Shown here in pieces: positions 30,910-32,718 of a stretch of DNA of 64,000 nucleotides. Each line of letters begins with the position of its first letter. The stretch's first letter is position 1. A program made the position numbers and the translations under genes. This stretch comes from Nitratireductor indicus C115. GTDB taxonomy: Bacteria > Pseudomonadota > Alphaproteobacteria > Rhizobiales > Rhizobiaceae. The DNA lies in assembly GCF_000300515.1 (NCBI RefSeq), contig NZ_AMSI01000008.1, forward strand, positions 186,001 through 250,000, read 5' to 3'. The notes beneath the pieces are model-generated. The model was not told the origin of the DNA. It did not search any database and worked only from the letters and a program-made list of their open reading frames with translations.

Positions 30910-32718
30910 ATGGCATTCGGATTTATCAAGAAGGTCTTTTCGTTCGGCAAGAAGCAGGTCGAGGAAAAAAGCGGGGATGAGACGGCCGAGACGCAAGCCG
31001 TAACCATCGCCACTGAAGATGCCGCAGATGCCGCCGCGCGACAGGCCGCCGAAAGTGCTGTGCCGGCAGCAGCCGAGCCCTTGACGCCTGAAGAACCTGC
31101 CCGCGAAATCGTTCCAGAGCCAGAGCCAGAGCCAGAGCCAGAGCCAGAGCCAGAGCCAGAGCCAGAGCCAGAGCCAGAGCCAGAGCCAGAGCCAGAGCCA
31201 GAGCCAGAGCCAGAGCCAGAGCCAGAGCCAGAGCCAGAGCCAGAGCCAGAGCCAGAGCCAGAGCCAGAGCCAGAGCCAGAGCCAGAGCCAGAGCCAGAGC
31301 CAGAGCCAGAGCCAGAGCCAGAGCCAGAGCCAGAGCCAGAGCCAGAGCCAGAGCCAGAGCCAGAGCCAGAGCCAGAGCCAGAGCCAGAGCCAGAGCCAGA
31401 GCCAGAGCCAGAGCCAGAGCCAGAGCCAGAGCCAGAGCCAGAGCCAGAGCCAGAGCCAGAGCCAGAGGCCGAACAAGCCGACGCGACACTCACACCCCTT
31501 TCTCCCCGCTCGCGGGGAGAAGGTGAGGACGGGGCCCCACGCGCGGCAAGCGATGCTGCCCCTGCGGCGAGTGACGCCGCGACGGCGGAGCCTGTGCCCG
31601 CGCCTGTCGAGTCCGCCGCTGATCCCTCTGCCGGCACCCTCTCACCGCAAGCGGGGAGAAGGGATGAAGCGGAGATGCCGGCTCCAGAGCCGGAGACGGT
31701 CGAAGAACCACCCGCACCTTCCGCGCCCGGCAAGGTCACCGTTTCCAAGGCCGTGGAGCGCGAGCACGAGGTTGTTCCGGAGCCGGTGGTGGCAGAGCCC
31801 AAAAAGCCCTGGTTCCAGCGGTTGCGTGAGGGGTTGTCGCGGTCCTCGCGGGAACTGCGCGATTCCATTGCCGGCATCTTCACAAAGCGGAAGCTGGACG
31901 AAGACACGCTTCAGGATCTCGAAGACGTGCTCCTGCGTGCCGACCTTGGCCTGGAAACCGCAATGCGCGTTACCGATGCGCTGGCTTCGGGCCGCTACGG
32001 CAAGGATATTTCCGGCGATGAAGTGCAGGCGGTGATGGCCGAGGAGATCGAGAAGGTTCTGGCGCCGGTCGCCAAGCCCCTCGAGCTCGACCTGTCGCAC
32101 AAGCCGCATGTGATCCTCGTCGTCGGCGTCAACGGGACGGGCAAGACCACGACCATCGGCAAGCTCGCCGCCAAGCTGACAGAGGGCGGGCTTTCGGTGA
32201 CGCTTGGTGCGGGGGATACGTTCCGTGCGGCGGCGATCGAGCAGTTGAAGATCTGGGGCGAGCGCACTGGCTCGCCGGTGGTCTCCTCCAAGCTCGGCGC
32301 GGATGCGGCGGGGCTCGCCTACGATGCCTATGAGAAGGCGAAGGAGGCGGGATCGGATGTGGTGATCATCGATACGGCAGGCCGCCTTCAGAACAAGGCG
32401 GAGCTGATGGCCGAACTCGAGAAGATCGTTCGCGTGCTCGGCAAGCAGGATCCCGAAGCGCCGCACACAGTGTTGCAGACGGTCGATGCCACCACCGGCC
32501 AGAATGCGCTCAACCAGGTGGAAATCTTCCGCAACGTGGCGGGCGTCAACGGGCTGGTGATGACGAAGCTCGATGGAACGGCGCGTGGCGGCATCCTCGT
32601 GGCGATTGCCGCCAAGCACAAATTGCCGGTCTATTTCATTGGCGTTGGTGAAGGGGTGGACGACCTGGAGCCCTTCTCCGCTGGCGACTTCGCCAAGGCA
32701 ATCGCGGGGTTGGCCTGA
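30910..32718 (+). CDS. ftsY: Signal recognition particle receptor FtsY with greatly expanded acidic Pro-Glu region
   Basis: 602 residues, of which the last 300 or so are a normal FtsY NG domain: helical N domain ([15 protein letters not shown]), G1 [22 protein letters not shown] and [10 protein letters not shown]. It docks SRP-ribosome complexes at the membrane. The acidic A domain holds 59 uninterrupted Pro-Glu dipeptides (residues 69-186) encoded by perfect CCAGAG units. It is followed by two peptides encoded by palindromic repeats (about residues 195-207 and 242-252), then more Pro/Glu-rich sequence. The NG domain appears intact, so the protein should be functional. Confidence 0.96.
31114..31467. 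repeat. (CCAGAG)59 perfect hexanucleotide array inside ftsY
   Basis: 354 bases of uninterrupted CCAGAG, in frame, encoding (Pro-Glu)59. No unit differs from the consensus, which implies recent expansion or strong homogenisation. Because units are two codons long, gain or loss keeps the frame. Confidence 0.98.
31498..31523. repeat. Palindromic element in the ftsY coding sequence, copy 1
   Basis: TCTCCCCGC (31501-31509) pairs with GCGGGGAGA (31512-31520), extended by flanking pairs. It matches the common rhizobial intergenic hairpin with the CTTCTCCCCGC core. Here it is read through in frame and encodes LSPRSRGEG. Confidence 0.75.
31637..31663. repeat. Palindromic element in the ftsY coding sequence, copy 2
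   Basis: CCCTCTCACCGC, two bases, then GCGGGGAGAAGGG form an imperfect hairpin of the same family as 31498-31523. It is read in frame as LSPQAGRR. Confidence 0.7.

Follow-up and report, generated by a model that had tools for sequence, protein, structure and literature searches.

The ftsY gene of Nitratireductor indicus C115 contains, in the region that encodes the A domain, the acidic part of this SRP receptor, 59 perfect tandem copies of the hexanucleotide CCAGAG, which are translated as 59 Pro-Glu (PE) dipeptides, and arrays of the same unit recur in ftsY in other genomes of the class, with lengths that differ between species of the genus. We consider it probable (about 0.7) that these arrays are the product of recurrent hexanucleotide expansion in a tolerant acidic linker, driven by slippage or recombination and with the composition of the linker under selection.

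A pure hexanucleotide array in ftsY

The open reading frame located at positions 30910..32718 (plus strand) of the window, i.e. of the whole 64,000-nucleotide stretch that was analysed, encodes a protein of 602 amino acids with an A and an NG domain. The product scored 315.1 bits with the FtsY equivalog model TIGR00064 (cut-off, 260.7), and SRP54_N and the SRP54 GTPase domain were matched in it with Pfam. The neighbouring genes are mtaB upstream (29570..30904, plus strand; TIGR01579, 456.2 bits against a cut-off of 357.05) and the gene encoding septation protein A (IspZ) downstream (32761..33414, plus strand; NF001323, 314.9 bits against a cut-off of 196).

The array, (CCAGAG)59, extends over 31114..31467 (plus strand) and encodes (Pro-Glu)59, residues 69-186, with a net charge of -59. 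Direct reading and Tandem Repeats Finder (period 6, 59.0 copies, 100% matches, 0% indels, score 708) both confirm the 59 perfect dipeptides of the preliminary description; the other two rows that the program rendered in the window have scores of 62 and 51, and the purity of the array together with its score excludes a chance origin. A pattern search of the whole 4.99-Mb genome located four consecutive CCAGAG units at 56 overlapping places, all of them within the ftsY array, and no match in this genome to four units of the reversed control pattern. In 37 mechanically picked, non-overlapping ORFs of at least 250 amino acids in the window, the FtsY ORF being left out of the count, CCA makes up 84 of the 786 Pro codons (10.7%). 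Because CCA is thus a minor Pro codon, the uniform CCA-GAG pair looks like one copied DNA unit and not like codon usage. One contig spans the array, with unique flanks on both sides, and the copy number of 59 is given as assembled in this draft genome of 73 contigs.

The N-terminal extension in which the array lies is acidic and, in an AlphaFold2 model, disordered, as corresponds to an A domain. Residues 1-299 have a net charge of -77, or of -18 when the array is left out, and the array, one pure dipeptide, provides 118 of the first 300 residues. In the low-depth model (7 sequences, mean pLDDT 54.3, pTM 0.42), helices were placed at residues 3-9 and 31-48, each with a pLDDT below 50, and residues 49-300 were without structure; no confident structure was obtained for residues 10-300, the array showed no secondary structure (block-mean pLDDT of 37-54), and pLDDT was below 50 at residues 179-299. 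A helix at residues 301-323 followed, and then the helices and strands of the NG domain. The assignment of the array to the acidic FtsY A domain, made beforehand from the sequence, is supported.

Two segments of the extension stand out by their conservation in an alignment of 7 FtsY proteins. One is the N-terminal amphipathic segment (30910..30954, plus strand), in which M1, A2, F5, K7, F10, F12 and G13 are invariant, and the other is the A/N-boundary helix (residues 301-323; 31810..31878, plus strand), with W301, F302, R304, G308, L309 and R311 invariant; the acidic linker between them has ca. 285 residues. Helices 3-9 and 301-323 sit where E. coli FtsY binds membranes, and from the alignment and the model, in which helix 3-9 is of low confidence, they are likely to be the first and the second membrane-binding helix, respectively. 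Such a role of the two segments agrees with PMC8082313. Between the array and the A/N-boundary helix, the remainder of the variable acidic linker (31468..31809, plus strand), recognised from the sequence and the pLDDT of the model, includes two palindrome-like stretches. The N domain (residues 316-379) and the GTPase domain (residues 399-598), which Pfam places together at 31855..32703 (plus strand), are conserved, and the stretches G406-V-N-G-T-G-K-T-T-T and D436-T-F-R-A-A-A, which we take to be the P-loop and DTFRAAA motifs of FtsY, are invariant in the 7 aligned proteins.

Copy number and reading frame in related genomes

A search of 11 genomes of the genus with TIGR00064 rendered ten FtsY proteins above the cut-off, and no FtsY NG match above it in the eleventh genome (G001). 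Six of these genomes are assembled through the array and have 59 (C115), 53 (G003), 52 (G004), 24 (G002), 7 (G005) and 7 (G006) copies, and three PE units, which are of two codon types, are present in ftsY of G009. The comparison of A domains in the genus that had been proposed at the outset thus gives from 3 to 59 units in seven genomes, with lengths that differ between species, and the array is a coding tandem repeat whose copy number differs among relatives. In G007 six units are followed by Ns, and in G010 and G008 the contig ends inside the array, with 7 CCAGAG units left in the former and 13, followed by one CCAGAA, in the latter.

The ten genus genomes are 20-51% different from one another at the fourfold-degenerate sites of the N/G region, and the four long arrays (24, 52, 53 and 59 units) have no synonymous change at all. 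Since the long arrays are pure despite this divergence, copying of the unit outpaces point mutation.

Twenty-six of the arrays found have neither a gap nor a contig end, and in 25 of them the frame that gives PE is also that of the NG domain. This agrees with the earlier remark that, the unit being two codons, a change in length is silent with respect to the frame. For the array itself, a phase-variation switch operating by frameshift was rejected on the same evidence of a 6-base unit and 25 of 26 arrays in frame. The exception is G004, whose frame is broken between the 52-unit array and the NG domain, a break that could be real or an error of the draft. In G189, one of the genomes counted below as having the array in ftsY, 16 units are in frame with the NG domain and are preceded by a frame that is not the usual FtsY start; this upstream frame resembles an ATPase with a membrane segment, and either a fusion or a misjoin across two similar arrays could explain it.

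It could be argued that an artefact of the assembly or sequencing of a draft genome accounts for the array or for its great length. The 73 contigs of the source would be consistent with this, as would the fact that 19 of the 45 array-bearing loci that were placed on a tree (see below) are broken at the array (14 at a contig end and 5 into Ns), the broken frame of G004, and the foreign-looking frame joined to the array in G189, which a misjoin could produce. However, the array of C115 lies inside a contig with unique sequence on either side, ftsY arrays recur across many genera, and relatives assembled in one contig have 31 (G724), 20 (G762) and 21 (G823) copies, with 53 in the two-contig congener G003, so that long arrays are not generally artefacts. 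We regard an artefact as very improbable. The possibility, raised in the preliminary description, that an assembly error explains the array is weakened by the long arrays of the one- and two-contig relatives, but with 19 of 45 loci broken the worry is only reduced, and it still applies to the exact count of 59 in C115. Because assemblies break at the array, a draft can lack FtsY, or have it split or frameshifted.

Occurrence of arrays beyond the genus

In a pattern search of 872 distinct genomes of the class, 47 had at least six consecutive CCAGAG units. Thirty-four of these 47 are among the 395 genomes of the family (14 of 109 genera; 361 genomes without such an array), 12 among 192 genomes from the rest of the order, and one among 285 genomes from the rest of the class. 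The search of the order itself gave 13 of 199, including C115, with 7 of those 199 belonging to the family, and the search of the class 2 of 289, again including C115, with three of those 289 belonging to the order, which is Hyphomicrobiales as judged by its named members. The reversed pattern, used as a control, matched in 3 of the 395 family genomes and was absent from all rows of the order and class searches. Its 28 matches in G328 correspond to another repeat array.

The array is located in ftsY in 43 of the 47 genomes (31 of 34 in the family, 11 of 12 in the rest of the order, and the single one outside the order), as assigned from the coordinates of the NG domain or from an N-terminal FtsY-like segment ahead of the array; for repeats in general the proportion may be an overestimate, because the unit searched for came from this ftsY. 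The ftsY arrays of CCAGAG are distributed over 12 of the 109 family genera and six other families of the order, and one more is in a genome from a different order. In two genomes, G074 and G720, a CCAGAG array follows the start motif and the contig ends within it, and no FtsY NG match at an E of 1e-68 was found in G074. With 43 genomes carrying CCAGAG arrays in ftsY, the initial impression that the array stood alone had to be abandoned.

The four array genomes without an array in ftsY are G207, where it is in a helix-hairpin-helix protein, G337, where it is in a protein with a marginal PAS match, G132, where a PE array is part of a frame of 833 amino acids that has no Pfam match at an E of 0.01 except one to PARP below the cut-off, and G832, with 24 CCAGAG units in a TonB_C protein and an FtsY without a Pro-Glu array. 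G849 has two arrays, one in ftsY and another, also of CCAGAG, close to the end of a ModC-like frame. The A domain of G124 has, in addition to its PE array, a second hexamer array of 16 units (CCGATG in the search register), which gives Asp-Ala repeats. A search for six CCGGAG units rendered 2 of 390 genomes, one with the array in ftsY (G258) and one with the array elsewhere (G255).

Repeated gain or single ancestry of the arrays

From 153 loci offered, 143 distinct NG domains of sufficient length were used for a quick maximum-likelihood tree, on which 45 rows were labelled as carrying an array (at least six pure units); the rows are not a random sample, array genomes having been added on purpose. 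The label needs 21 changes on this tree, or 20 if two truncated or mixed-codon rows are relabelled as arrays, and 19 if the three-unit congener is added. The starred branches alone force 9 changes, or 7 after relabelling, and 61 of the 140 inner branches are drawn open. The label is also clustered, since none of 500 shuffles gave a number of changes as low (shuffled mean of 39-41). Gains and losses of the array are not distinguished by this tree.

The position of the array within the A domain and the unit that is used vary as well. The distance from the end of the array to the A/N motif is 3-5 residues in some genera and 113-157 in others, and intermediates exist. Synonymous units are found in ftsY of Hoeflea alexandrii and of G328 (nine CCTGAG each), G388 (ten CCAGAA) and G258 (fifteen CCGGAG). 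In L083, a locus of a MAG, and with the same reading in G720, a run of 32 PE built of six synonymous units is on the contig of the NG domain, and a second contig of G720 has 15 PE units at its end. The Pro-Glu sequence of this run has been kept despite codon change, which points to selection on the amino acids at that locus.

The differences in position speak for repeated origin, and from the sequences we infer several independent origins. The opposite case, one ancestral array of the order that was lost many times with no independent expansion, would account for the CCAGAG unit common to most of the cases found, and one gain with many losses is compatible with the NG tree when this is considered alone. 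It does not fit well, however, with arrays that range from adjoining the A/N helix to lying more than 150 residues off, nor with the other synonymous units of some lineages, and the shared preference for CCAGAG could instead reflect its weak folding as a single strand; we consider a single ancestral array unlikely. As single-stranded DNA, 20 units of CCAGAG fold with -3.6/-5.4 kcal/mol vs. -43.3/-38.1 kcal/mol for CCGGAG, the energies of CCGGAG and CCGGAA ranging from -38 to -45 kcal/mol; at the same length CCAGAA and CCTGAA show no folding, and CCCGAA folds as weakly as CCAGAG. Avoidance of hairpins may therefore be a partial account of the success of this minor codon pair, but other units fold as little.

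Possible mechanism and role of array length

According to the reading that we prefer, recurrent expansion, the array would be a hexanucleotide microsatellite within the coding sequence of the acidic FtsY linker. Strand slippage or unequal recombination of CCAGAG would make a short PEPE seed in this linker grow and shrink, each step adding or removing whole Pro-Glu pairs, so that the conserved GTPase would stay in frame. The linker would join the N-terminal membrane-binding helix to the A/N-boundary helix and would need only to be acidic, disordered and extended, so that a wide range of lengths could be tolerated; selection would bear less on the exact length than on acidity, disorder and the reading frame. 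Such expansion would have happened repeatedly in Hyphomicrobiales and at least once outside this order. Slippage or recombination is the most likely driver of length, and the data are consistent with selection on composition rather than on exact length, although, the mixed-codon run apart, neutral drift without selection on composition would produce almost the same pattern. The array itself probably adopts the conformation of an extended, polyproline-II-like charged rod. With the rise of 0.31 nm per residue of polyproline II, its full extension would be, by simple arithmetic, ca. 37 nm, the real chain being shorter.

It can also be the case that length is functional, the Pro-Glu rod tuning the shielding of the SRP-binding site by the A domain or the reach of the GTPase from the membrane; slippage would then be a means of adjustment, and the array would be retained for it. 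The concentration of the array in one gene over many lineages (43 of 47 array genomes), the preservation of the frame, and the survival of PE through codon change at one locus would be in line with this. According to the review PMC8082313, the SRP-binding site stays shielded by the A domain as long as FtsY has not met SecYEG, which raises the fidelity of targeting, but the domain is non-essential in E. coli, and this combination leaves room for neutral change in length or for a graded effect. The lack of a CCAGAG array in 361 of 395 family genomes also weighs against a functional length, which we hold to be rather improbable, if slightly less so than a single ancestral array. More speculatively, the slippage-prone rod, whose copy number would give it ca. 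4 to 37 nm at full polyproline-II extension, might serve in FtsY of this order as an evolvable ruler that tunes the docking of SRP at the membrane, an idea to which we give a low probability; if it were true, length mutations in a housekeeping gene would let lineages set how faithfully or how fast membrane proteins are targeted.

The linker of a universally conserved targeting receptor differs by more than 100 residues between congeners by means of one DNA unit. The species of the genus form a natural series of lengths, ready for use in the study of what the FtsY A domain does, and the array is a candidate length marker for the typing of isolates.

Comparison with known systems

Like the A domain of E. 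coli-type FtsY, that of C115 is an acidic and variable N-terminal extension; a conserved NG domain follows it, and membrane-binding segments, here predicted, lie at its start and at the A/N border. In C115, by contrast with the E. coli type, 118 of the first 300 residues are a pure dipeptide array of a single unit. The A domain is described as variable in length and sequence in the accessible parts of PMC8082313 and PMC2572998, and low-complexity regions of archaeal FtsY are listed in the part of PMC6821194 that is accessible. The accessible portions of the open-access literature gave no description of Pro-Glu arrays in FtsY of bacteria, which does not prove that there is none.

Pro-Glu repeats also join a membrane anchor to a folded domain in the central Pro-Glu/Pro-Lys region of TonB, for which a polyproline-II-like extension has been proposed (PMC7098700, accessible text), and one genome (G832) has its CCAGAG array in a TonB_C protein. 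In contrast to TonB, FtsY is cytoplasmic and peripheral, with no periplasm to span and no Pro-Lys part. Bacterial coding VNTRs share with the array the in-frame unit, the pure copies and a copy number that varies among relatives; the FtsY array differs from them in recurring in the same housekeeping gene across many genera. Long EP repeats are present in the EP procyclin of trypanosomes, a eukaryotic surface protein with no kinship to FtsY. The array matches the corresponding Pfam profile, Trypan_PARP, by composition, at 39.9 bits against a gathering cut-off of 100, and an identification as procyclin was rejected.

Other observations in the ftsY region

The minus-strand ORFs at 30700-31476, 30870-31907 and 30926-31489 were rejected as antisense genes, being poly-LW, -SG and -AL readings of the stop-free repeat. 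Nine plasmid records match part of 29500-33000 with identities of 60-80%; the best 5 of the 9 cover 23-30% of it, corresponding to mtaB or to the NG part of ftsY, and none among the matches listed covers 80%.

The two palindrome-like stretches of the linker were located by pattern search. The palindrome TTCTCCCCGC-TC-GCGGGGAGAA is an in-frame part of the linker at 31500..31521 (plus strand), and a second copy with 2 mismatches to the pattern is at 31639..31660 (plus strand); with up to 3 mismatches allowed, the pattern has these 2 matches in the window vs. 0.01 expected. A mobile palindrome family is not claimed, the exact 22-mer tested having one occurrence in the genome. Stretches that resemble them in translation, such as PRERGEGEDEG and LLPAGGEKE, are seen repeatedly in the FtsY linkers of the genus.
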